Under the pieces are notes generated by a model, which was not told where the DNA came from, ran no database searches, and saw nothing but the letters and a program-made list of their open reading frames with translations. 33,469 nucleotides of DNA from an uncultured beta proteobacterium (lineage in GTDB: Bacteria; Pseudomonadota; Gammaproteobacteria; Burkholderiales; Rhodocyclaceae). The stretch is from positions 1 to 33,469 of the forward strand of contig CAINHS010000117.1 in NCBI GenBank assembly GCA_903848955.1, given 5' to 3'. Position 1 is the stretch's first letter. The number at the start of each line of letters is the position of its first letter. Position numbers and translations under genes: made by a program. Below, piece by piece: positions 2,567-20,172 of this stretch.

Positions 2567-4237
2567 ATGACTTATCCCGAAGCCCCCCCGCAGACCATCA
2601 CCTATGACACCCACCCCGCTGCCTACAAGCACTGGCGCCTGAGCTTCGACGGCCAGGTCGCGACGCTGCACCTGGACATCAGCGAGGACGGCGGCATCAA
2701 GCCCGGCTACAAGCTGAAGCTGAACTCCTACGACCTCGGCGTCGACATCGAACTCTACGATGCGCTGCAGCGCATCCGCTTCGAGCATCCCGAAGTGCGC
2801 AGCGTCGTCGTCACCTCCGGCCGCGATCGCATCTTCTGCTCCGGCGCCAATATCTTCATGCTGGGCCTATCGACCCACGCCTGGAAAGTGAATTTCTGCA
2901 AATTCACCAACGAAACGCGCAACGGCATCGAGGATTCCAGCCGCCATTCCGGACTCAAGTTCATCGCCGCCTGCAACGGCACCACCGCCGGCGGCGGCTA
3001 CGAACTGGCGCTGGCCTGCGACGAAATCATCCTGGTCGATGATCGCTCCTCCGCGGTCAGCCTGCCGGAGGTTCCCCTGCTCGGCGTGCTGCCCGGCACC
3101 GGCGGCCTCACCCGCGTCACCGACAAGCGCCACGTCAGGCGCGACCATGCCGACATCTTCTGCACCCTGACCGAAGGCGTGCGCGCCCAGCGCGCCAAGG
3201 AATGGCGGCTGATCGACGACTATGCCAAGCCCCAGGCTTTCGCCGAGAAGGTCAAGCAGCGTGCCGAGCAACTCGCAGCGCAAAGCGACCGCCCGGCCGA
3301 TGCCGCGGGCGTCGCCCTGCCCGCGCTCAAGCGTCGCATCGACGCGGCCGGCTATCACTACGAAACGGTCGACGTCCTCATCGACCGCAAGGCACGTCGC
3401 GCCACGCTGACCGTCGCCGCCCCGGCAAGCGCCGCGGCCGACAGCATCGACGGCATCGTCGCCGCCGGCGCCGCCTGGTGGCCGCTGCTGATGGCGCGCG
3501 AACTCGACGACGCCATCCTCATGCTGCGCACCAACGACCTCGAAATCGGCACCTGGGTGCTGAAGACCCGCGGCGACGCGGCGCACGTGCTTGCCGCCGA
3601 TGCCGCGATGAACCGGCACAGGCAGCACTGGTTCGTGCGCGAAACCATAGGCATGCTGCGGCGGACCCTGGCCCGCCTCGACGTCACTTCGCGCACCATG
3701 ATCGCCCTCGCCGAAGGCGACAGCTGCTTCGCCGGCACGCTGGCCGAACTGCTGCTCGCCGCCGACCGCAGCTACATGCTGTCACTGCCTGACGACGAAA
3801 AGTCCGAGGCCGGGATCACGCTATCGGAGATGAATTTCGGCAGCTACCCGATGGTCAATGGCCAATACCGCATCGCCGCGCGCTTCTATGGCGAGGAAAG
3901 TCCACTCGCTGCCGCCAGGTCGGCAATCGGCAAGCCGCAGGGCGCCGCCGCCGCACGCGAACTGGGGCTCGTTACCGCAACGCCCGACGAGCTCGACTGG
4001 GCCGACGAGATCCGCATCGTCCTCGAAGAGCGCGCCAGCCTTTCGCCCGACGCCCTCACCGCGATGGAAGCCAACCTGCGCTTCGGCCCCGGCGAGACCA
4101 TGGAAACCCGCGTCTTCGGCCGCCTCTCGGCCTGGCAGAACTGGATTTTCATCCGTCCCAACGCCGTCGGCGAAACCGGCGCCCTGAAGGTTTTCGGCAG
4201 CGGCAACAAGGCCAAGTTCAACTGGGAACGCGTTTAA
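2567..4237 (+). CDS. boxC: BoxC: 2,3-epoxybenzoyl-CoA dihydrolase
   Basis: A 556-residue, two-part crotonase-superfamily protein. It catalyses hydrolytic ring opening of 2,3-epoxybenzoyl-CoA to 3,4-dehydroadipyl-CoA semialdehyde and formate, the second step of the aerobic benzoyl-CoA pathway. Its length (about twice a usual enoyl-CoA hydratase), the FCSGANIFMLGLSTHAWKVN segment near residues 90-110, and the CNGTTAGGGYELALACDEI oxyanion-hole region near 135-155 are typical of BoxC. A CGGAG ribosome-binding site precedes the ATG. It follows boxR directly and is followed by boxB after a 136-base gap that holds a repeat hairpin. No frameshift or missing segment was seen. Confidence 0.93.
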   Translation: MTYPEAPPQTITYDTHPAAYKHWRLSFDGQVATLHLDISEDGGIKPGYKLKLNSYDLGVDIELYDALQRIRFEHPEVRSVVVTSGRDRIFCSGANIFMLGLSTHAWKVNFCKFTNETRNGIEDSSRHSGLKFIAACNGTTAGGGYELALACDEIILVDDRSSAVSLPEVPLLGVLPGTGGLTRVTDKRHVRRDHADIFCTLTEGVRAQRAKEWRLIDDYAKPQAFAEKVKQRAEQLAAQSDRPADAAGVALPALKRRIDAAGYHYETVDVLIDRKARRATLTVAAPASAAADSIDGIVAAGAAWWPLLMARELDDAILMLRTNDLEIGTWVLKTRGDAAHVLAADAAMNRHRQHWFVRETIGMLRRTLARLDVTSRTMIALAEGDSCFAGTLAELLLAADRSYMLSLPDDEKSEAGITLSEMNFGSYPMVNGQYRIAARFYGEESPLAAARSAIGKPQGAAAARELGLVTATPDELDWADEIRIVLEERASLSPDALTAMEANLRFGPGETMETRVFGRLSAWQNWIFIRPNAVGETGALKVFGSGNKAKFNWERV

Positions 4238-4261
4238 CACCCCCTACCCCAGACCTTAACT

Positions 4262-4337
4262 ACAGAGACACAGAGGCACAGAGAAAAGCAGGCAGAAGAT
4301 TGTTGTTGAATTCCGCTGTGTCTCTGTGCCTCTGTGG
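4262..4337. repeat. CACAGAG-unit inverted repeat between boxC and boxB
   Basis: The gap 4238-4373 contains two arms, 4262-4283 and 4316-4337, each built of tandem 8-base CACAGAG[A/G] units in opposite orientation. They can pair over about 22 bases with a few mismatches and a ~32-base loop. The same family recurs between boxB and boxA. It resembles the dispersed CACAGAG/CTCTGTG intergenic repeats of many environmental proteobacteria. It is not a CRISPR: there are only two arms, inverted, with no spacers. Confidence 0.8.
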
Positions 4338-4373
4338 TGAATGTTCTTATCGTCTCAAACTTCGGAGAATGCA

Positions 4374-5798
<1,425 letters not shown>

Positions 5799-5808
5799 AG
5801 AAATCTGA

Positions 5809-5911
5809 ACCACAGAGACACAGAGTCACCGAGAAAAAGCAATCTTGCAGGAGATGCCAAGTCACACGCGGGCCTGTCTTGCATTTCTCTGTGCCTCTGT
5901 GTCTCTGTGGT
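5809..5911. repeat. CACAGAG-unit inverted repeat between boxB and boxA
   Basis: The 154-base gap contains two 28-base arms at 5809-5836 and 5884-5911. The reverse complement of the right arm matches the left at 26 of 28 positions, so the transcript could form a long hairpin with a ~47-base loop. It is the same repeat family as in the boxC-boxB gap. No run of T follows, so a terminator is unlikely. Confidence 0.85.
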
Positions 5912-5952
5912 GAAATGCCGGTTTTTGGCACCCCAACCGCAAGGACATTGCA

Positions 5953-7188
5953 ATGACAGCGACCGCCATCCTGCGCCAGCACCTGATCGATCCCGAGATA
6001 TGCATTCGCTGCAATACCTGCGAAGAAACCTGCCCGGTGGATGCGATCAGTCACGACTCGCGCAACTACGTGGTCGACGCGGCCAAATGCAAGTACTGCT
6101 ACAACTGCATCTCGCCCTGCCCGACCGGAGCCATCGACAACTGGCGCCATGTCGCGGCAGAAAATAGCTATTCCCTTGCCGAGCAATTGTTATGGGATAC
6201 GCTGCCGCAACAGGTCGCGTTCGATCAGGCGACACCGGCCGGCGCGAACAGTGCCGCGGCGCTGCCCGACGAGGTGGAGAAGATCGCCGCCGCATCGACT
6301 GCCGGCCAGGGCGGCGCAGCGCCGCCGCCGTGGTCGGCCGCGCATCCCTACGTCAATCTCTACTCGATCCAGAAACCCGCGGTGGCAACGGTCAGCGGCA
6401 ACTTCCGCCTGACGGCGGAGGATGCTTCGAGCGATATCCGTCACATCGTGCTCGATTTCGGCAATGCCTCGTTTCCGGTGCTTGAAGGACAGACCATCGG
6501 CATCCTGGCGCCCGGGCTGGACACCGACGGCCGGCCGCATCACGTCAGGCTGTATTCCGTCGCCAGCCCTCGCGACGGCGAACGGCCGCGCTACAACAAC
6601 CTCTCGCTCACGGTAAAGCGCGTCAGCGAGGATCACGAAGGCGTCGCGGTCCGCGGCGTTGCCTCGAATTTTCTCTGCGACCTCAAGAAGGGTGACAAGG
6701 TCAATGTCGTCGGCCCCTACGGCACCAGTTTCCTGATGCCGAATCATCCGGGCAGCAAACTGCTGATGATCTGCACCGGCACCGGTTCAGCGCCGATGCG
6801 TGCCATGACGGAACGCCGGCGGCGCAAGTCGCTGCCCGGCGAGGATGGCAAGCTGATGCTGTTCTTCGGCGCCCGCACAGCGACCGAACTGCCCTACTTC
6901 GGGCCGCTTACCCGGCTACCGAAGGAATTCATCGACATCAACTTTGCTTTTTCGAGAGCCCCCGGCCAGGCCCGGCAATACGTACAGGATCTCATCCGCA
7001 ACCGGGCCGACGAGGTTGTACGCCTGCTGCGCGACCCCGATACCTATGTGTACCTGTGCGGCCTGAAGGGCATGGAGACCGGCGTCGACCAGGCCTTCAG
7101 CGATATCTGCAGCGGTGCTGCGCTGAACTGGAAGATACTCCAGGCCGAGCTTCTGCTGCAGGGGCGTTACCACGTCGAAACCTATTGA
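5953..7188 (+). CDS. boxA: BoxA: NADPH-dependent reductase component of benzoyl-CoA 2,3-epoxidase
   Basis: A 411-residue iron-sulfur flavoprotein that passes electrons from NADPH to BoxB. The N-terminus carries two [4Fe-4S] motifs: C17, C20, C23 and C27 ([12 protein letters not shown]), and C46, C49, C52 and C56 ([12 protein letters not shown]). A linker rich in Ala and Pro (~90-125) leads to a ferredoxin-NADP reductase-like module with the FAD-binding RLYSVAS segment and the nucleotide-binding [13 protein letters not shown] segment. An AAGGAC ribosome-binding site precedes the ATG. It is the last gene of the operon; boxD (semialdehyde dehydrogenase) and the benzoate-CoA ligase gene are not in this window. 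Its end faces the liv genes, with a terminator between. Confidence 0.94.
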
Positions 7189-7305: not shown

Positions 7306-8457
7306 TCAGTTGACCAGAGTCCAGTCTCCATTCTTGATTTCCAGCATGCGGAAAGCCGACTGATCCAGGCCCATGTGATCCGTTGCCGACATATTGACCT
7401 TGCCGCCGGTGCCGATGTAGCCCTTGGTGGCTTCGATCGCATCCCGCACCTTGGCTTTGTCCGTTGAACCGGCGCGCTTGAAGGCATCGACCGCGATCAT
7501 CAGTCCATCGTAAGCATGGCCGCCGAAGGTCGACACATCCTCCTTGAAGCGCTCGCTGTAAGCCTTGCGGTATCCCGTGGCGACGGGCTTCTGCGGGTCG
7601 CCAGCCGCCAGTTTGTCCGCCACCAGCAAGGCTGCCGCAGGAAGACGGACACCTTCAGCCGCCGGCCCGGAGAGCTTGATGAACTCTTCCGAAGCGACGC
7701 CGTGCGCGTGGTAGAGCGGCAGGGTGATGCCGAGTTGCTTGTAGTTCTTGTTGACCACCGAGGGACCCTGCCCCAGACCGAAGACGAATACCGCCTGCAC
7801 GCCCGCCGTGTTCTTGATCTTGGTCAGTTGCGGCGTCATGTCGGTGTCCTTGGGCCCGTAGGTCTCATTGGCCACCAGGGTAATCCCCATCTTGGTCGCC
7901 ATGGCCTCGGTTTCCTTCTTGCCGGAGGCGCCGAAGCCGCTGGTTTCGGAGAACAGTGCAATCTTGGTGAGATTACGCTTCTTCATGTCGTCGAACACCT
8001 TTTCCGCCGCCATGCGATCGGTATGCGGCGTCTTGAACACCCACTTCTTCACCGGCTCGACGATGACCACGGCGCCTGCCAGTGAAATGAACGGCAGTTC
8101 CGCCTTTTCGACCAGGGGAATCATCGACATGGTCGAACCCGTGACGGTGCCGCCGACGATGATGTCGACCTTGTCATCGTCGATCAGGCGCTTGGCAAAA
8201 CCGTTGGCCTTGGCGGCGTCGCTGCCGTCGTCGTAATGCACCAACTGCAGCTGGCGGCCCAACACCCCGCCTTCCTTGTTGATCTTCTCGATGTACAGCT
8301 GCAGCGTTTTCAGTTCGGGATCGCCCAGGAAAGCGGCCGGGCCGGTGACCGAAAGCACGGACCCGATCTTGATCGGATCCGCCGCCAGCGCCGAAAAGCT
8401 GGCACCGACTGCAATCGCGGCGGCAGTGACGATCTTGAGCAAAGAGTGTTTGACCAT
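7306..8457 (-). CDS. Periplasmic LivK-type substrate-binding protein of an ABC transporter
   Basis: A 383-residue type I periplasmic binding protein. Residues 1-25 form a clear Sec signal peptide (basic start, AAAIAVGASF core, cleavage after SALAA). The mature part opens with DPIKIGSVLSVTGPAAFLG, the usual start of the branched-chain amino acid binding family, and continues with a VGGTVTGSTM segment. A GGAGGAAA site precedes the ATG. It is last in a run with livHMGF, separated from the ATPase gene by 89 bases, so it probably captures the substrate for that importer. Homologues in aromatic clusters bind aromatic acids. Phenylacetate, phenylalanine or benzoate are likely candidates from context; sequence alone cannot decide. 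Confidence 0.85.
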   Translation of the reverse strand: MVKHSLLKIVTAAAIAVGASFSALAADPIKIGSVLSVTGPAAFLGDPELKTLQLYIEKINKEGGVLGRQLQLVHYDDGSDAAKANGFAKRLIDDDKVDIIVGGTVTGSTMSMIPLVEKAELPFISLAGAVVIVEPVKKWVFKTPHTDRMAAEKVFDDMKKRNLTKIALFSETSGFGASGKKETEAMATKMGITLVANETYGPKDTDMTPQLTKIKNTAGVQAVFVFGLGQGPSVVNKNYKQLGITLPLYHAHGVASEEFIKLSGPAAEGVRLPAAALLVADKLAAGDPQKPVATGYRKAYSERFKEDVSTFGGHAYDGLMIAVDAFKRAGSTDKAKVRDAIEATKGYIGTGGKVNMSATDHMGLDQSAFRMLEIKNGDWTLVN

Positions 8458-8546: not shown

Positions 8547-9863
8547 TCAGATGCCAAGATAGGCGGATCTCACCTGCTCATTGTCGAGCAATTCACTGCC
8601 GGTACCGGATAGAACGGTTTCTCCGGTCTCGATCACATAGGCCCGGTCCGCGATGGACAGTGCCGCCTGGGCGTTCTGCTCGACCAGGAAAACGGTCTTG
8701 CCATGCTCGCGCAGGCTGATGATCGCATTGAAGATCTCCTGGATCAGCAGCGGCGCGAGGCCCATCGACGGTTCGTCCAGCAGGAGCAATTTCGGCCGTC
8801 CCATCAGGGCCCGCGCCATCGCCAACATCTGCTGCTGGCCGCCGGACAGGGTTCCCGCTGCCTGGCGGTACTTCTGCCTGAGGATCGGGAACATGCCGTA
8901 CATCTGCTCCATGTCTTCCGCAACCGACACCTTGTCGCTGCGGGTATAGGCTCCCAGGCGCAGGTTGTCTTCCACCGTCAGGGGACCGAATACCTGGCGT
9001 CCCTCGGGCACCTGGCAGATACCCAGCCGGACACGCTGGTCGGGGCGCATGTGCGTAATGTCGTGCCCGGCAAAAACCACCTTGCCGCCGGATGCCTTCT
9101 GCACCCCGGAGATCGCCCGCAACAAGGTCGTCTTGCCGGCGCCATTGGCACCCACCAGAGCCACCAGCTGGCCCTGCCTGACTTCGATATTGACACCCCG
9201 CAGCGCCTGTATGCGCCCATAGGAACTGGTCAGGTTGGCCACCGACAGCAGCACCGGATGCGCTTCGACCACAGCATTCGCTGCGCCGACGAGACCGAAA
9301 CCAATCGGTGCAGGCGCCTGGTTGACGATGCGCGACATCAGGGCACGGAACTCGATCAGGGCGCTTTCGCCGAACAACGGATCACGGCTGTCGGCAAACG
9401 CGCTATTGATTCCTTGCCAGTCTGCCTCGGTCAATACTCTGCGCGCCAGCGGAAACAGGTCGCTTTCCTCTTTCATGATGTGCTGCCGCATCATCGAAAT
9501 GTAGTCTTCAAGTGTCTGCCGGAACTCGCGAGCCCCTTCCGGATAGGCGCCGACGACCGCCTTCAGCCGGGCACGCAGCCGCGCCACATCAGCCGGGGTA
9601 TTGGCATGCTCGCGCTGGAACTCGGCGATCATTTCGTTGCCTTCACTGCTGCGGGCGAGCACGGCCTTGTACAGAAACGCCTCCTCTTTGGGTTCGTGCA
9701 CCCGCTCGACATACTGCTCGATGTAGTCAAGGATCATGCCGAACAAGGCGGCATCCGGCTTTTCCTCGCCCTTGCCGAGATGCTTGCACAATTCTTCAAG
9801 AACCACGGTCAGCTGCCACATGCTGCGGTGCTCGTTGCTGATGATCTGCAGAGCCTCTGTCAC
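8547..9863 (-). CDS. livF: Hemerythrin (HHE) domain fused to a LivF-type ABC transporter ATPase
   Basis: A 438-residue fusion. Residues ~1-150 are a hemerythrin-like four-helix domain with candidate iron ligands H12, H56 and E60 (RVHEPKEEAF), H86 (EHANT), and H128 and E132 (RQHIMKEESDLF). Residues ~205-438 are a complete LivF ATPase: Walker A GANGAGKTT (238-246), signature LSGGQQQ, Walker B LLLLDEPSMGL, and the switch histidine region. Normal LivF is ~235 residues, so the N-terminal ~200 are extra. The start is a GTG preceded by AGGAGA; there is no stop or frameshift between domains, and the ORF is in the expected place in livHMGF. Hemerythrins bind O2 or sense redox/iron, so the fusion could tie uptake to oxygen; that is inference. 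Confidence 0.88.
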   Translation of the reverse strand: MTEALQIISNEHRSMWQLTVVLEELCKHLGKGEEKPDAALFGMILDYIEQYVERVHEPKEEAFLYKAVLARSSEGNEMIAEFQREHANTPADVARLRARLKAVVGAYPEGAREFRQTLEDYISMMRQHIMKEESDLFPLARRVLTEADWQGINSAFADSRDPLFGESALIEFRALMSRIVNQAPAPIGFGLVGAANAVVEAHPVLLSVANLTSSYGRIQALRGVNIEVRQGQLVALVGANGAGKTTLLRAISGVQKASGGKVVFAGHDITHMRPDQRVRLGICQVPEGRQVFGPLTVEDNLRLGAYTRSDKVSVAEDMEQMYGMFPILRQKYRQAAGTLSGGQQQMLAMARALMGRPKLLLLDEPSMGLAPLLIQEIFNAIISLREHGKTVFLVEQNAQAALSIADRAYVIETGETVLSGTGSELLDNEQVRSAYLGI

Positions 9864-9885
9864 GAAATTCTCCTGGGATCCGGTC

Positions 9886-10647
9886 TCATACGTTGCTGCC
9901 CAGATAGGCGGCTATCACGTCCGGGTTCTCCCGCACTTCCCTGGCCGTGCCCTCGGTCAGCTTCTTGCCGTAATCGAGCACCAGAATGCGATCGGAAATG
10001 TTCATCACCATTTTCATGTCGTGCTCGACCAGTACCACGGTGACGTTGTTGTCGGCGACCTTGCGCACCAGTTCATCGATCTCGGCGGTCTCCCTGGAAT
10101 TCAGCCCGGCCGCCGGTTCGTCGAGGAAAAGAATCTGCGGCTTGGCGGCAAGCGCGCGGGCGATCTCGAGACGCTTCAGCGCGCCGTAGGGCATCGAGCT
10201 GGCGCCGAGATTCCAGTAGCTTTCGAGTCCGACAAAACGCATCAGTTCGCGTGCCTCGTCGCGCAGTTCGCGGTCGCGCCGGGCGAGACCGGGGAAGCGC
10301 AGCATGGCTTTGACCAGGTTGCGGTCAAGCTGCAAATGCGCACCGACCATGACGTTTTCCAGCGCGGTCATGTTCATGCAGACCTGCAGGTTCTGGAATG
10401 TCCTGGCCATGCCCTTCAAGGCCAGCGCATGCGGAGCGATGCCGGCGATGGACTGGCCCTCGAGCCGGATGTCCCCTTCGCTCGGCGTGTAAATGCCGGT
10501 GATCAGGTTGAACAGCGTGGTCTTGCCGGCCCCGTTGGGCCCGATGACCGAGTACACCAGGCCGCGCTCGACCGCAAAGCTGACATCCTGCACCGCCTTG
10601 ACGCCGCCGAAAGCCTTCGAAAGATTGTCGACTTCGAGCAGTGCCAT
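9886..10647 (-). CDS. livG: LivG-type ABC transporter ATP-binding protein
   Basis: A 253-residue ATPase with Walker A GPNGAGKTT near residue 38, a Q-loop in ARTFQN, an SMPYGALKRLEIARAL signature segment (SYGxQ replaced by PYGALKR, as often in LivG), Walker B ILFLDEPAAGLN, and the VEHDMKMVM switch region. The C-terminal extension ending in YLGSNV is usual for LivG. The start is the ATG at 10647 with GGGAGGA 8 bases upstream; longer readings of the frame run into livM. It overlaps the livM stop codon, so the two are translationally coupled. With the HHE-LivF protein it powers the importer. Confidence 0.92.
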   Translation of the reverse strand: MALLEVDNLSKAFGGVKAVQDVSFAVERGLVYSVIGPNGAGKTTLFNLITGIYTPSEGDIRLEGQSIAGIAPHALALKGMARTFQNLQVCMNMTALENVMVGAHLQLDRNLVKAMLRFPGLARRDRELRDEARELMRFVGLESYWNLGASSMPYGALKRLEIARALAAKPQILFLDEPAAGLNSRETAEIDELVRKVADNNVTVVLVEHDMKMVMNISDRILVLDYGKKLTEGTAREVRENPDVIAAYLGSNV

Positions 10648-11594
10648 CAGGGGTCCTCCCGCCCGTTGCGGCCGAAGCGGGCCGCCAGGGTGGGCACCAG
10701 TCCCTTCGGCATGAAGATCATGCACGTCATGAGAATCGAGCCGAAAACCACCGTTTCCCAACCCTCGAAAGTCGACAGCGCCTGCGGCAATGCGGTCAGC
10801 AGAACGGCGCCGATCAACGAGCCGTAAATGGACGCCATGCCACCGATCACGACCATGGTCACAAGTTCGATGGAATGGAAGAAATCGGCGATGTTGGGGG
10901 TGACGAAGCCGATGTAATGGGCGGTGACGCTGCCCATCAGGCTGGCGAAAAAGGCCGACAGAACGAAGATGGCGACCTTGTAGCGGACGATATCGACGCC
11001 CATCACCTGCGCCGCAACCTCGGAGCCGTGCAGCGCCCGCAGAGCCCGCCCGAACGGCGAATCGATGAGGTTCTTCGCCGCCCAGAAACTGAACAGCAGC
11101 GTCGCCGCGAGTACCCAGTACCACTGCTTTTCGCCCGCGATCTCGAAGCCCATCAGGCCGATCGGCGCCACCGGCATGCCGTCCGGACCGCCGGTATAGG
11201 CCGCCTCGTTCTTGATCACGATGGCGATGATGATGCCCATGCCGAGAGTGGCCATGGCCAGATACTGTCCCTTCAGGCGGAAGATCGGCCGCGCCAGTAT
11301 CGCCGCGATGGAACTCGCGATAGCTGCGCCGGCGGCCATCGCCAACAGCGGGTGCCAACCGAAATGGGTCGGCAGGATGGCTGAAGCATAGGCGCCGATG
11401 CCGATGAAGCCGGCGTGTCCGAGACTGATCTGGCCGGCAAAGCCGATGAGAAGATTCAAGCCGAGCGCGATTATGGCGTTGATCGCCATCCGTATGACGA
11501 TGTCGTAGTAGAAGTTGTTGGGCAGCACCAGCGGCAGCAGCAGCAGCACCGCGGCCAGAAGCATGAGGGAGTAATGCCGGCGCACGCCGCTCAT
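10647..11594 (-). CDS. livM: LivM-type ABC transporter permease
   Basis: A 315-residue inner-membrane permease with about 8-10 hydrophobic segments. It begins MSGVRRHYSLMLLAAVLLLL and contains the LNLLIGFAGQISLGHAGFIGIGAY motif that defines LivM. Another typical stretch, RLKGQYLAMATLGMG, follows about 50 residues later. The ATG overlaps the livH stop codon in an ATGA arrangement, and the stop overlaps the livG start. It forms the heterodimeric channel with LivH. Substrate specificity cannot be read from the permease. Confidence 0.92.
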   Translation of the reverse strand: MSGVRRHYSLMLLAAVLLLLPLVLPNNFYYDIVIRMAINAIIALGLNLLIGFAGQISLGHAGFIGIGAYASAILPTHFGWHPLLAMAAGAAIASSIAAILARPIFRLKGQYLAMATLGMGIIIAIVIKNEAAYTGGPDGMPVAPIGLMGFEIAGEKQWYWVLAATLLFSFWAAKNLIDSPFGRALRALHGSEVAAQVMGVDIVRYKVAIFVLSAFFASLMGSVTAHYIGFVTPNIADFFHSIELVTMVVIGGMASIYGSLIGAVLLTALPQALSTFEGWETVVFGSILMTCMIFMPKGLVPTLAARFGRNGREDP

Positions 11595-12466
11595 ACCCGC
11601 TCCGTGACCTGCGCGCCCAGAATGCCGCGCGGCATGAAGAAAAGAATGAACAGGATCAGGATGAAGGGCACGGCATCCTTGTACGCCGACGAAATGTAGC
11701 CCGCCGCCATGGCCTCGATGACGCCGACCAGCAGCCCGCCGAGAACGGCGCCGAGGCCGCTGCCGAGACCGCCGACCACGGCCGCGACAAAACCCTTGAG
11801 TCCCAGCATGATCCCGACATCGTAGGAGGTCAGGGTAATCGGCGTCAGCAGCACGCCGCCGATGGCTCCCAGCGCGGCCGAAAGCGCGAAGCTGACCAGC
11901 AGCACCCACTGCGTGTTGATGCCGACCAGTTCTGCGGCCAGACGGTTGCAGGAGGTGGCGAGAATTGCCTTGCCGGCCAGCGTACGGCTGAAGAAGTACC
12001 ACAGGGCAACCACTACCAGTGCCGTAACGCCGAGTACCCAGAGGCTTTGCGGCAGCAAAGTAGCGCCGCCGATGTGTATCGGGTCGCTGCCCGAGAATCC
12101 GGGATAGCTGTGCGCTCCTTTGCCCAGCCATATCTGGATCAGACCGCGGATGACCAGAGAAGCGCCGATGGTGATGATGATGAGCGTCACCACCTCGGCG
12201 TCGCGCGCCGGCTCTATCGCCAGTTTCTCGAGCAACATGCCGACTACCGCCGGAATCGCGATTGCCAGCGCAACCGCCACAGGCAGCGGCAGGCCGGCCT
12301 GCATGAAGTAGAACACCAGCATGCCGCCGAGCATGATGAATTCGCCCTGGGCAAAATTGATCACGTTGCTGGCGTTGTAGATCAGCGTAAACCCGAGCGC
12401 CGCCAGGGCGTAGGTGGCGCCCACCGTGATGCCCGAAAACAGAAACTGCAGGAACTGCGGCAGCAT
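11591..12466 (-). CDS. livH: LivH-type ABC transporter permease
   Basis: A 291-residue inner-membrane permease with about eight hydrophobic helices. It has the LivH motifs ALGFTLIYNASNVINFAQGE near the N-terminus and KGFVAAVVGGLGSGLGAVLGG in the C-terminal half. It starts 13 bases after the padJ stop, with a weak ribosome-binding site (AGTAGG). The short gap and shared strand suggest that the transporter belongs to the pad operon. This is the main reason to infer that the importer carries an aromatic acid, not branched-chain amino acids, despite the family name. Confidence 0.92.
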   Translation of the reverse strand: MLPQFLQFLFSGITVGATYALAALGFTLIYNASNVINFAQGEFIMLGGMLVFYFMQAGLPLPVAVALAIAIPAVVGMLLEKLAIEPARDAEVVTLIIITIGASLVIRGLIQIWLGKGAHSYPGFSGSDPIHIGGATLLPQSLWVLGVTALVVVALWYFFSRTLAGKAILATSCNRLAAELVGINTQWVLLVSFALSAALGAIGGVLLTPITLTSYDVGIMLGLKGFVAAVVGGLGSGLGAVLGGLLVGVIEAMAAGYISSAYKDAVPFILILFILFFMPRGILGAQVTERV

Positions 12467-12479
12467 GTCGTCGGCGGAC

Positions 12480-13799
12480 CTACTTCGGCCGCCGGTCGAT
12501 CACCCGCCGCGCTTTGCCCACCAGTGTTCGTTCGACCTTGTCGGTTTCGACGACGTGAACATCGGCGCTGACCCCCACCAGGGACTTGATCTGGTGCTGC
12601 ACGGCGGCGCCGATTTCATGTCGCCTGGCTTCGCTCAGGCTGCCCGAGAGTTCGCTGCGAACTTCGACGTAGACATCCAGCTTGTCGAGGTGCCCGTCGC
12701 GGGAAACCTGCAGCTGGTACTGGGCGCACAAGCTGGAGTTCTTCAGCAGAATCTCTTCGATCTGGGTCGGGAAAACATTCACGCCGCGGATGATCAGCAT
12801 GTCATCGCTGCGGCCGGTAATTTTTTCCATGCGCCTCATGCTGCGCGCCGTCCCCGGCAGCAGGCGGGTCAGGTCGCGGGTGCGATAGCGCAGAATCGGC
12901 AAGGCCTCCTTGGACAGGGAGGTAAATACCAGTTCGCCGATTTCCCCGTCCGGCAGCACTGCGCCGGTTTCCGGATGGATGATCTCCGGGTAGAAATGAT
13001 CTTCCCATATGTGCGGACCGTCCTTGGTTTCAACGCACTCGCAGGACACGCCGGGGCCCATGACCTCGGACAGGCCGTAGATATCAATGGCATCGATGCC
13101 CAGGCGCTCCTCGATCTCGCGCCGCATTTCGTTGGTCCACGGTTCGGCGCCGAACAAACCCACGCGCAAACTGCTGCCGTTCGCCTTCATGCCCTGCTTG
13201 ATCATCTCGTCGGCGATCGTCAGCACGTAGGAAGGGGTGCACATGATCACGCTGGGCTTGAAGTCCTGAATCAGCTGCACCTGCTTTTCGGTCTGGCCGC
13301 CGGACATGGGAATGACCGTTGCGCCGAGGGCCTCGCCGCCGTAGTGCGCGCCGAGGCCGCCGGTAAACAGGCCGTAGCCGTAGGAATTTAGAATGATGTC
13401 GTCGGCCGAGCAGCCCGCGGCGCGCAGCGAGCGCGCCATGAGTCGAGCCCACATGGCAATGTCGTTGGCGGTATAGCCGACTACCGTCGGTTTTCCGGTG
13501 GTGCCGGACGAGGCGTGCACCCGCACCACATCGCGCATCGGCGTCGCGAACAGGCCGTAGGGGTAGGTATCGCGCAGATCGGACTTGGTGGTGAAGGGAA
13601 ACTTGGCCAGGTCCGACAACTGCTTCAGGTCATCCGGATGCACCCCGGCGGCGTCGTACTTGGCGCGATAGTGCGGCACATTGTCGTAAGCGTGCTTGAG
13701 CGACCACTTCATGCGCTGAAGCTGCAGCGCCTGCAGTTCATCCCGGCTGGCCTTTTCTATCGGTTCCAGGCCGCTGCCCGGCACATTCTGCTTGCTCAT
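12480..13799 (-). CDS. padJ: Phenylacetate-CoA ligase (AMP-forming), anaerobic pathway
   Basis: A 439-residue adenylate-forming ligase of the PaaK/PadJ family, which activates phenylacetate to phenylacetyl-CoA with ATP and CoA in the cytoplasm. The phosphate-binding motif HASSGTTGKPTVVGYT (residues ~93-108), the DIYGLSEVMGPG segment and the C-terminal KITGRSDDMLIIRGVNVFPTQIE region are those of phenylacetate-CoA ligases. The start is the ATG preceded by GGAGGAG; a longer reading of the frame runs back through padI and is false. The ATG overlaps the padI stop (ATGA). As the first step of the pathway whose later steps are encoded by the genes just upstream, PadJ is preferred over the aerobic PaaK name. 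Confidence 0.9.
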   Translation of the reverse strand: MSKQNVPGSGLEPIEKASRDELQALQLQRMKWSLKHAYDNVPHYRAKYDAAGVHPDDLKQLSDLAKFPFTTKSDLRDTYPYGLFATPMRDVVRVHASSGTTGKPTVVGYTANDIAMWARLMARSLRAAGCSADDIILNSYGYGLFTGGLGAHYGGEALGATVIPMSGGQTEKQVQLIQDFKPSVIMCTPSYVLTIADEMIKQGMKANGSSLRVGLFGAEPWTNEMRREIEERLGIDAIDIYGLSEVMGPGVSCECVETKDGPHIWEDHFYPEIIHPETGAVLPDGEIGELVFTSLSKEALPILRYRTRDLTRLLPGTARSMRRMEKITGRSDDMLIIRGVNVFPTQIEEILLKNSSLCAQYQLQVSRDGHLDKLDVYVEVRSELSGSLSEARRHEIGAAVQHQIKSLVGVSADVHVVETDKVERTLVGKARRVIDRRPK

Positions 13800-15166
13800 G
13801 TTTCTCCTCCCGGCGCGCTTGCGCGATGAACCATCTGTTTGACGAAGGCGAGATTTTCCACCACCTTGGCCTGAATATGTGAAATCTGATCCGGACTCAG
13901 GTGACGGAAGCGGCCCATCGCCTTGAGATACTCGGTAACCGGCAGCGGCTGATCGACCGGCCGCGTGAAGCGCAGGCCGGCACCGGGGGTGTAATCCCAC
14001 AACATGACAAAGTTGGTCTCGACCGCCTTGCGCGCCACTTCCATGTTCTGGTCGGTCGGAAAACGCCAGCCGGTGGTGCAGGGCGAATAGACGTGCAGGT
14101 AGGCAAAGCCCCGCTTGGAAGCCTCTATCGCCTTGTCGAGCTTGTCGTAGAGATCTTCCATATAGGCCGTTGACGCCGTGGCGACATACTCGCAGCGATG
14201 GTTGACCATGATCAGCGGCAGATTCTTGGCATCCTGAGTCTTGCCCTGTGACGGCATGCCGCCCGATCCCTTGCCGACCGGCGTGGTAGACGTCCATGCC
14301 CCGTAGGGCGTACAACTCGAGCGCTGCATGCCGGTGTTCATGTAGCCCTCGTTGTCGACCACCATGAAAAGTATTTGCTCATTGCGCTCGGCCGCGCCGG
14401 ACAGTGACTGGAAGCCGACGTCGGAGGCACCGCCGTCGCCGGCGATGGCCAGCGCCAGCACCTCGCGCCCGACCCGCTTGTACTGCCGCTTGATGCCGGC
14501 CAGCATGGCGGCGGTATTGGTCAGCAGGGGATGGAACACCGGGATCTTGGTGCCGGTGGTGCCGTTGAAACCGACCGAACCCATGCCGGGCACGCAGCCC
14601 GGCGGCGTCGCCAGCACGGTGTCCGGTCCCACCCGGCGCAGCGTATGGCGCATCAGGAGTTCGGTATTGCAGCCCTGACAGCCGGCCAGGCCCGGTGCAA
14701 ACAGGTCCTCCCAGTCGCCGACTTCGTTGTAAATGCGGGAGGTGGTGATGTAAGTCAGCGCCCCGTGGGGGCAGGCCGGTACGCATGCCGGAGAGCCCGC
14801 CGGGCTTTCGTAACACATGTCGCACTTCGCAACGTGACCGCTGCCGGCGTCAAGCGCGATGCCGGCGTAGGCGCAACCGACCGTGCACAGCAGGCAATCG
14901 ACGCACTTCGCCGCGTTCCAGTCGATGACGCCGCTGGCGCCGTCCTTGGTCAGCGCCCCGGCCGGACACACCGTCACGCACTTTGGATCGCCGCACTGAC
15001 GGCACAGCGCAAGTTCGAATCCCCCGCTTGCGTCGCCCACGATCTGAATCCGCGAACGCGTCTTGTCCTGCGTGCCGGTCTTGGCGCCGGCGCAGGCGGT
15101 CATGCAGTCGCCGCAGCCGTCGCACCTGGCGGCATCGAAGGCGATGGTGTTGTAGCCTCTTCCCAT
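13796..15166 (-). CDS. padI: Phenylglyoxylate dehydrogenase beta subunit (ferredoxin domain + TPP domain)
   Basis: A 456-residue subunit of the NADH-forming phenylglyoxylate:acceptor oxidoreductase, which decarboxylates phenylglyoxylate to benzoyl-CoA and CO2. Residues ~1-135 form a polyferredoxin region with several cysteine clusters, including CDGCGDCMTAC, CRQCGDPKCVTVC, CVDCLLCTVGC and CDMCYES. Residues ~145-456 are a 2-oxoacid:ferredoxin oxidoreductase beta domain. It has the CQGCNTELLMRHTLR start, the thiamine diphosphate/Mg motif GDGGASDVG, and the following VVDNEGYMNTGMQRS segment. A separate ferredoxin would be usual in many relatives; here it is joined to the beta domain, as I recall for PadI. 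AGGAGA precedes the ATG. Confidence 0.88.
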   Translation of the reverse strand: MGRGYNTIAFDAARCDGCGDCMTACAGAKTGTQDKTRSRIQIVGDASGGFELALCRQCGDPKCVTVCPAGALTKDGASGVIDWNAAKCVDCLLCTVGCAYAGIALDAGSGHVAKCDMCYESPAGSPACVPACPHGALTYITTSRIYNEVGDWEDLFAPGLAGCQGCNTELLMRHTLRRVGPDTVLATPPGCVPGMGSVGFNGTTGTKIPVFHPLLTNTAAMLAGIKRQYKRVGREVLALAIAGDGGASDVGFQSLSGAAERNEQILFMVVDNEGYMNTGMQRSSCTPYGAWTSTTPVGKGSGGMPSQGKTQDAKNLPLIMVNHRCEYVATASTAYMEDLYDKLDKAIEASKRGFAYLHVYSPCTTGWRFPTDQNMEVARKAVETNFVMLWDYTPGAGLRFTRPVDQPLPVTEYLKAMGRFRHLSPDQISHIQAKVVENLAFVKQMVHRASAPGGET

Positions 15167-15175
15167 ATTCGTCTC

Positions 15176-16429
15176 CTAGCGCCAGAGTTTCGACATCAGT
15201 TCGCGGCCCACCGCCAGCGGGTTTGCCAGGAAGCGCTGCTTGACCGCCGACAGATCGACCCGGCGCAGGATCAGCTGGCACATGACGCCGCCGTCAAAGA
15301 ATTCGTTGACGCCGTAGATGCCGAGCAGCCGGTCATCCTTGAAGATCGCCTTGAGATAGCGGCCGCTGGCTTCGTCGAAGCGTGTCACCACCTCGGCGCC
15401 TTCCGTCAGTCTGCTGCTGCCCACCGAAATCGCATGGCGGCCGAAGAAATGATAGGTGTTGAGCGGCACGCCGCCCGGGTAGTGCTTCAGTCCGGGGTCT
15501 CCGGCCATGGCCATGCCGGCGATGCGCCCCTGCTCCGTCGCATCCGGCAGAATTGAATTCATCACCTTGTCGTCCGAGAAAAAGCTCTTGGCCTGCGCGC
15601 AATCGCCCGCCGCCCAGACGTTGGCGACGCTGGTCTGCATGCTGTCGCCGACCAGAATGCCCCGGTCATGAGCCACGCCGCTGTCGCCGAGAAAATCCAT
15701 GTTCGGCTTGACTCCCGTGGCCACCAGCAGCAAGTCGGCCTCCAGCGTCTTGCCGTTTTCAAGCGTCAGCGTCGCACCGACGGCCGACGGCGCCAGCTTC
15801 ACCACCCGGCTGCCGGTGAGGATGGTCGCGCCGTTGTCGACAAAAGCCTTTTCGATCATCTGCGCCGCCGTCGGGTCGAAATAGCCGTCGGTCAGTTGCT
15901 TCGCCATTTCGACGATGGTCACCGAGGCGCCGGCCTTGACCAGGTTCTCCGCCGCGTGCATGCCCACCAGCCCTGCACCCAGCACCACCGCGTGTTTCGA
16001 CTGGCTGATCGCCGCGTGCAGTCTGGTGGCGTCGTCCAGTGTGCGCAGGACGTGATACTTGACCTGATCGAGGCCCGGAATCGGCGGGATGGCGGGTGCC
16101 GCACCGGTAGCCAGCAGAACTTTTTCGTAGATGATTTCGCTGCCGTCGGCCAGTTCGGCCGCATTGCGCCCGGTATGCAGGGCTTCCAGCGCAGCGCCGC
16201 GCCTGTAGTCGACCCGGTTCGCCGCAAAAAACTGCTCGTCGCGGAGGAACACGTCGCCCGGTGCCGAGCGGCCGGACACGACGTAGGGCAGAACGGTCGG
16301 CGAGTAAGGCAGAAGCGTGTCGCGCGTGACCAGCGTCAGGCTGCCTTCGGCATCGTGCATGCGGATCGCCGTCACCGCTTCGAGCGCGGCGTGGCTGCTG
16401 CCGACGACGAGGTATTTGGTCTGTTCCAT
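15176..16429 (-). CDS. padH: Phenylglyoxylate dehydrogenase epsilon subunit (FAD/NADH oxidoreductase)
   Basis: A 417-residue flavoprotein of the pyridine nucleotide-disulfide oxidoreductase fold, which passes electrons from the iron-sulfur subunits to NAD+. It has an N-terminal FAD motif in the variant form VVGSSHAALEAV, an NAD motif VLGAGLVGMHAAENLVKAG near residues 148-166, and the ATG/GD FAD segments LLVATGVKPN and VWAAGDCAQA. No redox-active CxxC is seen next to the FAD motif. The GAGAGGGA ribosome-binding site lies in the end of padG, two bases before this gene. This subunit explains why the family enzyme can use NAD+ in place of ferredoxin. Confidence 0.87.
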   Translation of the reverse strand: MEQTKYLVVGSSHAALEAVTAIRMHDAEGSLTLVTRDTLLPYSPTVLPYVVSGRSAPGDVFLRDEQFFAANRVDYRRGAALEALHTGRNAAELADGSEIIYEKVLLATGAAPAIPPIPGLDQVKYHVLRTLDDATRLHAAISQSKHAVVLGAGLVGMHAAENLVKAGASVTIVEMAKQLTDGYFDPTAAQMIEKAFVDNGATILTGSRVVKLAPSAVGATLTLENGKTLEADLLLVATGVKPNMDFLGDSGVAHDRGILVGDSMQTSVANVWAAGDCAQAKSFFSDDKVMNSILPDATEQGRIAGMAMAGDPGLKHYPGGVPLNTYHFFGRHAISVGSSRLTEGAEVVTRFDEASGRYLKAIFKDDRLLGIYGVNEFFDGGVMCQLILRRVDLSAVKQRFLANPLAVGRELMSKLWR

Positions 16430-16431
16430 CG

Positions 16432-17679
16432 CTAGTCCCTCTCGTTGAGCCAGACCGGCTCGGTCGGCGCCGGGCCGGAAAGCAGCTTCTCCGTGGCCTC
16501 GATGACGCGATGAAAATGCCCCACCGTGATGTCGGCTCCGGCCAGGCCGCCGATAAAACTCATCGACGGCACATGCCGCCCCAGACGATACAGGGCTCCC
16601 ATGGTCTCCTGGTACATCGGCCCGCAGTTCCAGCGGAAGCCGACCGAACGGTCGACCACGCCCAGAGCCTGTATCTTGGCCAGGGACTTCAACAAGGCCT
16701 CGACCGGAAAGGGGCTGAAGGTCTTGAGCTTGATCAACCCGACGCGCTTGCCGGCATCGCGCGCCTCATCGATCGCGTCCTTGGCCGCGCCGCTCATGCT
16801 GCCCAGGGTCATGATGGCGTAGTCGGCGCCGTCGAGGCGGTATTCCTCGACCAGCGGCGCGAAGCGGCGGCCGAAACGCTGCGCCCACTCCTCGTGCACC
16901 TCCTCGATGACGCGCAACGAGTTCTGCATGCCGCGGCACTGTCCCTTGCGGTAGCGGACGAAGGTCGCCGGCCCCTTGCCGCCCGAACCGCCGGTCAGGG
17001 GATCGACCGCCATCGGCCGCAAAGGGTCGAGCGCCACATGCCAGTTCACGTTCTTGACGCCGAGGAAGGCGTCCACCTCCGCCTGATCGGGCAACTCGAC
17101 GCGCGAGGTGCCATAGGAAAGGTAGTTGCCATCGAGGCAGACATTCACCGGCAGCATGACATCGTGATGCTCGGCGATCTTGAACGCCATCACCGTCGTA
17201 TCCAGAACCTCCTGCACCGTTTCACAATACAACTGCACCCAACCGACCTCGCGCACCGTCATCGCGTCCTGGTGTCCGCCCCACACCGATTGCGGCGTGA
17301 TGCCGTCGCGGGTGACGATCGACATGACGATCGGCAAACGCATGCCGGAGGTGCGGAAATACGGTTCGAACATGAAGGCCAGGCCCGGGCCGCAGGTTGC
17401 GGTGTAGGTCCGCGCCCCGGCCAAGGCGCCGCCCTGCAGCACCGAGAGCACCGAATGTTCGCCTTCGGCATCGACGATATCGGCGTCCATGCGGCCGTCT
17501 GCGATCAGCTTGGCAACATGCTCGACCAGCGAGGACTGCGGCGTGATCGGATACACGGCCACCATGTCGGGGCGCGCCAGAGCCACGGCCAGAGCCGCGG
17601 CCTCGTTGCCTTCGCAGAGAATTACCTTCTGCTTCGCCGGCCCGGCTTGGTCGGGCACATCAAGCGCGGCGGTGTTCAT
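16432..17679 (-). CDS. padG: Phenylglyoxylate dehydrogenase alpha subunit
   Basis: A 415-residue alpha subunit of the 2-oxoacid:acceptor oxidoreductase family. It contains AVYPITPQSSLVEH, the TPP-domain motif typical of alpha chains, the EGEHSVLSVLQGGALAGART segment and a C-terminal domain II beginning near LDGADYAIMTLGSMSGAAKDA. It binds 2-oxoacid and CoA with PadI, which carries the TPP cofactor site. The ATG at 17679 overlaps the padF stop codon; an upstream reading of this frame lies within padF. The stop is two bases before the padH start. The gene is complete and typical for its family. Confidence 0.88.
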   Translation of the reverse strand: MNTAALDVPDQAGPAKQKVILCEGNEAAALAVALARPDMVAVYPITPQSSLVEHVAKLIADGRMDADIVDAEGEHSVLSVLQGGALAGARTYTATCGPGLAFMFEPYFRTSGMRLPIVMSIVTRDGITPQSVWGGHQDAMTVREVGWVQLYCETVQEVLDTTVMAFKIAEHHDVMLPVNVCLDGNYLSYGTSRVELPDQAEVDAFLGVKNVNWHVALDPLRPMAVDPLTGGSGGKGPATFVRYRKGQCRGMQNSLRVIEEVHEEWAQRFGRRFAPLVEEYRLDGADYAIMTLGSMSGAAKDAIDEARDAGKRVGLIKLKTFSPFPVEALLKSLAKIQALGVVDRSVGFRWNCGPMYQETMGALYRLGRHVPSMSFIGGLAGADITVGHFHRVIEATEKLLSGPAPTEPVWLNERD

Positions 17680-17975
17680 GTCGCCTCCGGAATCATGGTG
17701 ATCGCCCGTTGCGGGCACTCGTTGGCGCAGATGCCGCAACCCTTGCAGGTTTTCAGATTGAAATCAAACCAGGCCGGCCTTTCCTCGACGCACTGTACCG
17801 GACAATACAGCCAGCAAACCGCGCACTTGACGCACTTGTCGCGATCGACCACGGGCCGCATGCTGCGCCAGTCGCCGGGCAACATCGGGCTGACCTCGGT
17901 GGCGACCGGGCAAAGGTCGTCCGGCACATTCGCCTTGACCAGGTCGAACAACGGATAGCTGGTGTGCCGGCTCAT
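17676..17975 (-). CDS. padF: Phenylglyoxylate dehydrogenase delta subunit (2x[4Fe-4S] ferredoxin)
   Basis: A 99-residue iron-sulfur protein with two [4Fe-4S] motifs: CVKCAVCWLYCP at about residues 53-64, and CKGCGICANECP at about 82-93. This is the delta-subunit layout of four-subunit 2-oxoacid oxidoreductases, with ~50 residues before the clusters. It carries electrons from the TPP site towards PadH. Both ends overlap neighbours by ATGA (padE stop before it, padG start after it), so it is translated in tandem with them. Confidence 0.9.
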   Translation of the reverse strand: MSRHTSYPLFDLVKANVPDDLCPVATEVSPMLPGDWRSMRPVVDRDKCVKCAVCWLYCPVQCVEERPAWFDFNLKTCKGCGICANECPQRAITMIPEAT

Positions 17976-18544
17976 GCCGCGACCCTCCGCTCTATGGTGT
18001 ATACGGTCGTCTCGTTGTAGCCGCGCTCAAGGGCTGTAAGGTTCTGGGCGAGACCGGCATCGCGGAAATCGGAGTCGGCCAGAGAACGCTTCAAGGCTTC
18101 CAGCGAGACCACTCCGGTGGTCCGCGCGAAAGCGCCGAGCATCAGCGTATTGGTGATCGGACGCTTGAAAACCTCGAGCGCGATGCCGATTGCATCGCAC
18201 AGGCCGACCACGCCCACCGCGTCGGCAAGGGCCACCTCCGCCAGCGGCTTGTGCGTGGCCTGCACCAGTGTGCCGCCGGGCTTGAGACCGCTGAAAATAT
18301 CCACCGATCTTGCCAACGACGGATCGACGCAGATCAGACAGTCCGGGGTATAGATGTTGGTCAGCTGGCGGATCTCGCGATCGCTGCAGCGCAGGAAGGA
18401 AACCACCGGCGCACCGCGCCGCTCGAAACCGAAAGACGGAATCGACACCGCATACTTGCCTTCTTCAAGCAGTGCCGCCGCGAGCATCGCTGCCGCCGTA
18501 ACCGCACCTTGGCCGCCGCGGCCATGAAAGCGCACTTCGTACAT
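17972..18544 (-). CDS. padE: Phenylglyoxylate dehydrogenase gamma subunit
   Basis: A 190-residue gamma chain of the 2-oxoacid:acceptor oxidoreductase family. It begins MYEVRFHGRGGQGAVTAA, the CoA-binding loop that marks gamma subunits, followed by the IPSFGFERRGAPVVSFLR segment. It is the first of the five dehydrogenase genes (padEFGHI), and GAGGAGA precedes the ATG. The 60-base gap separating it from padD contains a stem-loop, unlike the overlapping junctions elsewhere in the operon. The protein is complete and close to the usual gamma length. Confidence 0.88.
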   Translation of the reverse strand: MYEVRFHGRGGQGAVTAAAMLAAALLEEGKYAVSIPSFGFERRGAPVVSFLRCSDREIRQLTNIYTPDCLICVDPSLARSVDIFSGLKPGGTLVQATHKPLAEVALADAVGVVGLCDAIGIALEVFKRPITNTLMLGAFARTTGVVSLEALKRSLADSDFRDAGLAQNLTALERGYNETTVYTIERRVAA

Positions 18545-19528: not shown

Positions 19529-20172
19529 GACTTGTCCCAAATGTAGTACACGCCCGGCTCGGTGCCGAGTTCTTCGTGCATGCGGTAATGCTGCGTTTCG
19601 CCAAGCAGCCGGCTGACGTTGCTGCCGGGATCGTCGATGTCACCGAACTCCATGGCGCCCGATATGCATGAATTGACGCAGGCAGGCGTCACCTCCGGAT
19701 GTATGCCCGGCGTCCGCCCGGTGATTCTTGCTTCGTCGATGCGATCCTTGCAGAAAGTACATTTCATCGACACCGCGACGCGCTCCGGATCGAAGCCCAT
19801 GGCTTCGGACGGCAGCGGCTGGTTGCCATAGGAAAAATGCGACTTATGCACAATCGTGCGGGCATCGTAAGGACAGGCCATGACACAGTTGGCGCAACCG
19901 ATGCAAAGATGGTAATTGATGTTCACCAGGCCGTCCGCACGTTGGGTGGTGGCCCCGGTCGGACACACTTCTTCACAGGGGGGGTTGCCGCAATGCATGC
20001 AGGCGCCGGGCAGGAAGGTGCGGCGCACGTCGGGAAACTCGCCGGTTTCGATGTCAAGCACACGCCGCCATTGCACCCCGGGCGGAGTTGCATTGGCTCC
20101 CTTGCACGCCGCGGTACAGGTCTGGCAGCCGACGCAGCGGCGCAAATCGATGCTCATCACATAGCGGGTCAT
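19525..20172 (-). CDS. padC: Phenylacetyl-CoA:acceptor oxidoreductase iron-sulfur subunit
   Basis: A 215-residue DmsB/NrfC-like electron-transfer protein with four [4Fe-4S] motifs: CVGCQTCTAAC (from C13), CMHCGNPPCEEVC, CIGCANCVMAC, and the split CTFC...CVNSC. These carry electrons from the PadB molybdenum site to the PadD membrane subunit. The start is the ATG at 20172, overlapping the padB stop codon; an upstream reading of the frame has no similarity to the family and falls within padB. There is no signal peptide or twin-arginine motif, so the soluble part of the complex faces the cytoplasm, as expected for a CoA-thioester substrate. Confidence 0.88.
   Translation of the reverse strand: MTRYVMSIDLRRCVGCQTCTAACKGANATPPGVQWRRVLDIETGEFPDVRRTFLPGACMHCGNPPCEEVCPTGATTQRADGLVNINYHLCIGCANCVMACPYDARTIVHKSHFSYGNQPLPSEAMGFDPERVAVSMKCTFCKDRIDEARITGRTPGIHPEVTPACVNSCISGAMEFGDIDDPGSNVSRLLGETQHYRMHEELGTEPGVYYIWDKS

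Follow-up and report, generated by a model that had tools for sequence, protein, structure and literature searches.

A hemerythrin-domain protein fused to the LivF-type ATPase of a probable aromatic-acid importer points to a possible link between uptake and oxygen, redox or iron state

The HHE-LivF gene and its neighbourhood

The DNA analysed here (hereafter the window) is a stretch of 33,469 nucleotides, contig CAINHS010000117.1 of assembly GCA_903848955.1, from an uncultured beta proteobacterium. Its minus strand carries one run consisting of pad genes, PaaK, LivH, LivM, LivG, a fused HHE-LivF gene and a binding protein. The fused gene (8547..9863, minus strand) is a single open frame of 438 amino acids with a GTG start and no internal stop, and a ribosome-binding-site-like AGGAG, identified in the sequence (9870..9874, minus strand), ends 6 bases ahead of the start codon. 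Residues 1–184 (9312..9863, minus strand) comprise, according to the Pfam match and the structural model, an HHE/hemerythrin domain with a C-terminal helical extension; the Pfam profile Hemerythrin (PF01814) matched residues 5–140 with 56 bits (cut-off 25.3) and an E-value of 7.4e-15. An inter-domain linker, delimited by pLDDT and length comparison, spans residues 185–203 (9255..9311, minus strand), and residues 204–438 plus the stop codon (8547..9254, minus strand) form the LivF-type ABC ATPase domain, assigned through ABC_tran (residues 221–366, 111.8 bits, E 4.9e-32), phmmer and NCBIfam. The in-frame fusion described by the first-pass annotation was therefore confirmed, since both domains were matched within one frame. 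The extra N-terminus of about 200 residues that it mentioned is also present, although its borders had to be corrected: the HHE part proper ends near residue 184–190, and LivF starts near residue 204.

The ATPase part carries Walker A, the signature LSGGQ and Walker B and has LivHMG and binding-protein partners, which identifies it as LivF-type; with the frame open throughout, the view that no frameshift or stop separates the domains and that the ATPase motifs are intact was borne out. This part aligned over its full length with 1ji0_A (phmmer, E 1.5e-78), an example of the LivF-type ATPases of branched-chain amino acid importers, which have no HHE domain. The best NCBIfam match was LivF NF008626, with 274 bits; the equivalog cut-off of 441 was not reached, indicating a LivF-type ATPase outside the branched-chain amino acid equivalog. 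The HHE part is probably COG3945-like, a label that follows the work on benzoate clusters cited below. Linker length ranged from 18 to 33 residues in 62 fusions. Production of a separate LivF from an internal start was considered and rejected, since an in-frame Shine-Dalgarno sequence followed by a start codon occurs in the linker of just 2 of these 62.

The other importer genes are on the same strand. They encode the unfused partner subunit, a LivG-type ABC ATPase (9886..10647; PF00005, PF12399), the LivM-type (10647..11594) and LivH-type (11591..12466) permeases, both with PF02653 and labelled M or H by their order, and the importer's periplasmic substrate-binding protein (7306..8457; PF13458, 212.7 bits). 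Further along the minus strand are the phenylacetate-CoA ligase gene paaK (12480..13799; TIGR02155, 711.6 bits, cut-off 646.3) and the phenylglyoxylate dehydrogenase genes padI, padH, padG and padE (13796..18544), with matches above the cut-offs of NF045766 (PadI), NF045764 (PadG) and NF045762 (PadE); frame 15176-16429 is a pyridine-nucleotide oxidoreductase by Pfam and is named PadH by position. The ATPase does lie in the same run as the pad genes, as first described. Phenylacetyl-CoA oxidoreductase-like genes follow (18605..22925, minus strand), with partial family matches: frames 20169-22925 and 19525-20328 gave matches to molybdopterin and Fe-S subunits below equivalog cut-offs, while the presumed identity of frame 18605-19540 and the names padD, padC and padB go by position. 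The frame beside padB (22947-23810) is presumably FdhD-like (a sulfurtransferase for Mo enzymes), judging from its CGLCG motif. On the opposite (plus) strand lie boxC, boxB and boxA (2567..7188), for the O2-dependent benzoyl-CoA pathway; BoxC (TIGR03222) and BoxB (TIGR03225) were above cut-offs, which agrees with the box operon reported next door, and boxA we name by position.

Genes for an O2-independent route to benzoyl-CoA (pad) hence adjoin the O2-dependent box operon (window 2567-22925), and a pad-liv-box neighbourhood was also observed in L100, L102, L106 and L107. No match to the BcrA, BcrB or BzdO models was detected in the own genome at E 0.001, so that Pad-made benzoyl-CoA may need O2 for ring opening. 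No PaaA above the cut-off was detected in this genome either; two divergent relatives scored 64–73 bits against a cut-off of 280, at L287:8045-14251 (contig C27) and L289:7847-8677 (contig C15). The relative on C27 sits with PaaJ-, PaaI-, PaaN- and PaaY-like genes, a cluster that perhaps encodes a variant phenylacetyl-CoA oxygenase. The idea that this organism must use pad plus box was dropped, because the C27 relative leaves an aerobic phenylacetate route possible. HHE domains are common in this genome, with 15 matches to PF01814 over the cut-off.

Conserved candidate metal ligands and predicted structure

Six candidate metal ligands are located in the HHE part, all on the minus strand of the window: H12 in helix 1 (9828..9830), H56 and E60 as an HxxxE motif in helix 2 (9684..9698), H86 in helix 3, with no histidine four residues before or after it (9606..9608), and H128 and E132 as a second HxxxE motif in helix 4 (9465..9482). 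Each was found in 81 of 81 sequences, a set formed by the window and the 80 named loci kept from a scan with the HHE part. These residues, which the first-pass annotation had placed correctly, are also invariant in 17 full-length fusions (17/17), whose HHE parts fall to 32% identity, and in 92 of 92 sequences when stand-alone relatives are included. In YtfE, the sequence SHMMKEE is aligned to the H56/E60 region. From this conservation we infer a putative diiron protein.

One important question is whether the domain binds O2, as the hemerythrin reading in the first-pass annotation supposed. The motif of O2 carriers is H-HxxxE-HxxxH-HxxxxD (PMC9388753). In the 81 sequences this motif was absent, since helix C has no second histidine and helix 4 has Glu instead of Asp. 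Position 82 is L or F in 81/81 and never His, whereas position 90 is Pro in 74, His in 1 and another residue in 6; the window protein has His at neither. E133, at +5 of H128 and hence in the place of the O2 carrier's Asp, is invariant (81/81). Since, moreover, YtfE, NMB1532 and FBXL5 are the closest relatives of solved structure, O2 binding cannot be assumed, and that reading was not sustained. The ligands of YtfE/RIC and FBXL5 we take to be H, HxxxE, H, HxxxE, as in the window HHE, and the ligand set resembles those of YtfE/FBXL5 more than that of an O2-carrying hemerythrin. Histidine was seen at position 90 in 8 of the 92 sequences (L279, L251, L257, L280, L281, L194, L195 and L196), all of them stand-alone or USP-fused relatives and none fused to LivF. 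A His in this place is a feature of O2-carrying hemerythrins, so some relatives may bind differently.

An AlphaFold2 model of residues 1–190 (47 rows; mean pLDDT 90.9) showed a four-helix bundle plus two further helices. The bundle helices (residues 3–27, 38–71, 76–105 and 111–143) carry H12, H56/E60, H86 and H128/E132, respectively, so that every helix of the predicted bundle contributes at least one candidate ligand. In a sequence-profile search of solved proteins the matches were YtfE (E 8e-9), NMB1532 (2p0n, 3.6e-5) and FBXL5 (6.9e-5). Foldseek placed 3cax first (TM 0.68), 2p0n second (0.65), FBXL5 ninth (0.54) and YtfE at rank 33 (0.34), with no match at E 0.001 or better. The structure prediction proposed in the first-pass annotation thus gave a four-helix bundle, with weak fold matches to solved HHE proteins. 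The full-protein model (62 rows) had a mean pLDDT of 86.5, a pTM of 0.58 and pLDDT below 50 at residues 185–198; because of the low linker pLDDT and this pTM, the domains look flexibly tethered, with no fixed contact predicted between them.

Distribution of the fusion

Full-length fusions were found in at least 17 of 199 genomes of the family, at least 10 of 399 of the order, at least 4 of 369 of the class and at least 4 of 398 of the phylum. The own genome is included in each count, the family and order sets share genomes, and the values are lower bounds, as the best 8 or 4 candidates per genome were scored. Four further genomes of the phylum set were over the threshold through a match in the LivF part only. 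Named contigs were also scanned with the HHE part of the 17 fusions, and the best 80 of the 138 loci encoding relatives were kept. The HHE domain is fused in frame to LivF in 76 of these 80, a proportion that does not extend to HHE proteins in general, since the loci were picked by the HHE part of known fusions. Three of the others (3/80: Caenispirillum bisanense, Azospirillum soli and Azospirillum isscasi) have a stand-alone HHE protein, and one is cut by a contig end. Among the 76, three loci (L139, L151 and L160) run off the contig within LivF and L131 stops early. Some named loci share assemblies with the genome sets above, and the counts were accordingly not summed.

The fusion ranges from Sulfuritalea, Zoogloea, Azonexus and Rhodoferax up to gammaproteobacteria, and includes the isolates Zoogloea ramigera NBRC 15342, Z. 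dura, Azonexus hydrophilus, Dechloromonas hortensis and Marinobacterium jannaschii DSM 6295. An assembly error or a fusion private to this genome, which the first-pass annotation had named as grounds for giving up its claim, is ruled out by the 76 fused loci and by the other genomes. One scan of viral sequences with the HHE part detected no relative. Distant HHE relatives were present in 28 plasmid records, all below 60% identity; the 15 plasmid rows listed are annotated as hemerythrin or universal stress protein, or are without annotation.

Gene context and likely substrate

Marker genes were searched at the 76 fused loci by tblastn with identity and coverage limits, using genes from the window, from L044 and L112 (PaaX, PaaY, PaaN, PaaH and PaaF above cut-offs) and from L190 (PaaA, PaaC, PaaK and PaaX above cut-offs). 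Aerobic phenylacetate markers (PaaN, PaaY, PaaA or PaaC homologues) were found in 42 loci, pad genes in 7, other paa genes only in 7 and no marker in 20; many of these 20 are short contigs, but in L115, L120 and L135 the flanking DNA extends for the full 10 kb in either direction. In 56 of 76 loci the fusion is thus accompanied by one or more pad or paa markers, a conserved link to phenylacetate genes. A LivG gene was present at 74 of the 76 loci; the exceptions, L152 and L154, start at a contig end close to the fusion. The assignment to an aromatic-acid importer operon was upheld. The substrate is probably phenylacetate or a close aromatic acid, as judged from gene context.

By contrast, the proposed tie to the anaerobic pad genes did not hold: pad genes are present in 7/76 loci against 42/76 with aerobic markers, and LivF carries no HHE domain in the pad clusters L055 and L056. 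The search for HHE-LivF proteins beside pad genes that had been suggested did find such loci, but mostly aerobic phenylacetate genes in their stead. These proportions make a phenylacetate importer probable and the pad link a lineage speciality; the system is best read as a phenylacetate importer that is aerobic in the majority of bacteria and was taken up by the pad cluster in the Sulfuritalea-like lineage. They also bear on the explanation in which an O2-carrier hemerythrin shuts the importer when O2 appears, sparing the anaerobic pad pathway. Pad genes adjoining the fusion in the window and in seven fused loci, in a genome that also has box genes, would suit such a switch; set against the aerobic majority and a ligand pattern that departs from the O2-carrier motif, we consider it very improbable.

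In L044:15347-16396, L145:10782-11846 and many other fused loci, a 350-residue ferredoxin-FAD-NAD reductase that is not PaaE by cut-off was observed alongside. At L042:13945-15372, PadI is split in two frames while the HHE-LivF frame is whole.

Stand-alone relatives of the HHE domain

A search of 121 genomes of the family gave 88 unfused matches, and 40 of the first 41 by rank were taken (G103:C2 was left out). In 12 of the 40 the HHE gene immediately follows LivF within a Liv operon. In another 12 it lies 3' of boxCBA in the same orientation, frequently with an intervening thiolase gene, and in 14 it sits beside a USP-like gene; the remaining 2 were in no group. L252 and L278 have gaps of about 1 kb and 3 kb, respectively, between boxCBA and the HHE gene. 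The box-linked HHE proteins (L251, L252, L256, L257, L259, L261, L268, L269, L274, L278, L280 and L281) formed a clade with support 100/97. Loci L212-L214 were added because LivF had been seen beside HHE and are thus biased picks, and L214 is the same locus as L282. In all, 14 distinct LivF-HHE operons were recorded, with a gap of 15–174 bases on the same strand and a LivF 36–50% identical to that of the window. In the three alphaproteobacteria, about 6–10 kb separate the stand-alone HHE gene from a Liv operon whose LivF is unfused; PaaX lies in this interval, together with further paa-like genes in Azospirillum.

The stand-alone proteins end near where the linker of the fusion begins. The window HHE is 34% identical to L245, and the best matches of stand-alone relatives to fused rows were 35–45%. 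The same HHE family was also seen fused C-terminally to a presumed USP-like (universal-stress-protein-like) domain in L194, L195, L196 and L198 (three genomes); one plasmid match is annotated in this way. The repeated occurrence of HHE next to LivF as a separate gene indicates that the two are linked.

Relatives beside boxCBA and USP-like genes fit a general iron, redox or stress role, and this raises the chief rival to a regulator acting in cis, a protective or iron-handling module without transport control. The HHE domain would scavenge O2, peroxide or NO, or would store or donate iron in a YtfE-like manner for the diiron and Fe-S enzymes that degrade aromatics (BoxB, PaaA, Pad), the fusion providing membrane placement and fixed stoichiometry. 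The sequence-profile search, headed by YtfE, points the same way, and protection or an O2 store/scavenger function has been proposed for COG3945 proteins in benzoate clusters (PMC6449761). What this explanation leaves unaccounted for is the LivF partner, as the fused HHE domains form one clade (see below) and the protein is adjacent to LivF in 14 other operons; we hold it to be rather unlikely.

Evolution of the fusion

Two trees were compared. In the LivF tree (130 rows, 92 fused and 38 unfused), whose details are unsure given long branches and unsettled bootstrap, the fused label needs 9 changes, of which 7 are forced by starred branches. Unfused L028, L069, L026 and L098 fall inside fused groups, and unfused L029, L030, L031 and L071 are interspersed with fused L146, L153 and L174. 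The HHE tree has 92 rows; in it the 44 'fused' rows, including L105, which is cut by a contig end, form a single clade with support 99/96, sister to the stand-alone HHE of the three alphaproteobacterial paa loci. Independent fusions were hence rejected, as the HHE tree gives one fused clade although the LivF tree needs 9 changes. One gain with several losses, or exchange of LivF, fits these trees best: most simply, a single joining event in an ancestor would have been followed by inheritance or transfer across beta- and gammaproteobacteria. The separate genes stand in the order LivF-HHE and the fusion in the order HHE-LivF, so that the fusion did not arise from the loss of one stop codon.

Ten genomes were queried for an HHE protein of the fused type. 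None was detected at E 1e-10 in G304, G114, G006, G078 and G1123; the other five do have one, including the fused G378, which belongs to the same genus as the unfused G304. Since unfused LivF proteins are nested among fused ones, the HHE domain looks auxiliary. This distribution also argues against a structural or assembly role, in which HHE would help LivF to fold, pair with LivG or bind PaaK/Pad with a metal of structural use only, for same-clade LivF proteins in G304 and G114 are unfused in genomes without such an HHE. The flexible tether, the extra C-terminal helices and the fixed stoichiometry of the fusion would agree with such a role; the six ligands, however, stay invariant while the HHE sequence drops to 32% identity in the 17 fusions, and we regard the explanation as improbable.

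Nine close relatives compared with the window gave dN/dS values of 0.12–0.31 for HHE and 0.07–0.10 for LivF, and HHE gave 0.04–0.44 in 20 other close pairs, with synonymous sites near saturation in some. HHE dN/dS is below 0.45 in all 29 pairs printed; both parts of the fusion are, by this measure, under purifying selection, HHE evolving faster than LivF. A fusion without a function of its own, a genetic hitchhiker, might be suspected from that faster rate and from the unfused LivF rows, read as losses. We find it hardly credible in view of the dN/dS values and of ligands that are invariant across divergent sequences.

Comparison with known systems

As background, YtfE/RIC acts in Fe-S repair and the NO response, and FBXL5 in iron and O2 sensing. 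By sequence profile, both rank with the nearest proteins of solved structure, but unlike the window HHE they are not fused to ABC ATPases. COG3945 genes occur in benzoate clusters of Rhodocyclales, with a role described as unclear (PMC6449761). The window HHE resembles those stand-alone proteins in its link to aromatic-acid transporters and box genes, and both the C-terminal extension and the six ligands recur in the relatives analysed here, which may be of the same clade as the genes of PMC6449761. The stand-alone proteins are encoded by genes of their own, 3' of LivF or box genes, whereas the window HHE is fused to the N-terminus of LivF.

The first-pass annotation knew of no transporter controlled in this manner, a statement that needs qualification, because P1B-5 ATPases, although not ABC transporters, bear a hemerythrin-like domain (PMC9388753). 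Both systems place a cytoplasmic hemerythrin-like domain, diiron or predicted to be so, on an ATPase that drives transport, and in both this domain may act as a sensor. P1B-5 ATPases are P-type metal-ion ATPases with a C-terminal domain and the motif H-HxxxE-HxE-HxxxxD, whereas the window protein is an ABC importer subunit with an N-terminal domain and the motif H-HxxxE-H-HxxxE, and it does not belong to the P1B-5 type. Hemerythrin-c-di-GMP enzymes likewise have an N-terminal hemerythrin domain ahead of a catalytic domain; redox-dependent catalysis has been shown for them, but their hemerythrin ligands are canonical, unlike those of the window. Architectures of O2-binding hemerythrins are surveyed in PMC4919030. 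No paper on an HHE-LivF fusion was present among the matches listed in the open-licence PMC literature, and within that literature HHE-LivF is a hemerythrin-domain chimera for which no earlier description was found.

Proposed role of the fusion

Taken together, these results suggest a possible coupling of aromatic-acid uptake to oxygen, redox or iron state. We propose, with a probability of roughly 45%, that the HHE part is a diiron module acting as a cis regulator of the LivF ATPase in an importer of phenylacetate or a close aromatic acid. In this proposal, a LivF subunit that carries a complete HHE protein as its N-terminus, predicted to be a diiron four-helix bundle, would respond with altered activity of the tethered ATPase to the redox state of the diiron site (oxidised versus reduced) or to its ligand state, perhaps O2, peroxide, NO or iron loading. 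Uptake and the subsequent CoA trapping would thereby be matched to the capacity of the cell to finish the pathway. With an aerobic pathway, uptake might be slower when O2 is short, which would avoid CoA trapped as phenylacetyl-CoA; this direction is speculative.

The proposal draws on the ligands conserved in 81/81 sequences, purifying selection, the single fused clade and the 14 LivF-HHE operons, and unfused LivF proteins among fused ones fit an auxiliary, regulatory part. Against it, stand-alone HHE proteins in the same kind of neighbourhood indicate that covalent coupling is not essential; the lack of a predicted contact between the domains, the weak Foldseek matches and the 20 of 76 loci without a phenylacetate marker were also counted against it. 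A wider version, which we put forward more tentatively, is that a family of aromatic-acid ABC importers may be gated by a diiron HHE protein, built into the ATPase in the phenylacetate branch and a separate partner elsewhere, so that redox, O2, NO or iron state would control carbon uptake directly and post-translationally; the HHE-LivF protein would be the first member described.

If the cis-regulator proposal is true, aromatic-acid uptake would be tuned at the pump itself, by O2 or redox fitness for ring opening, beyond transcription. LivF would also become a testable partner for the HHE proteins encoded in benzoate and phenylacetate clusters, described in PMC6449761 as unclear in function, and the fusion would be a natural single-chain construct for measuring the HHE-LivF partnership.
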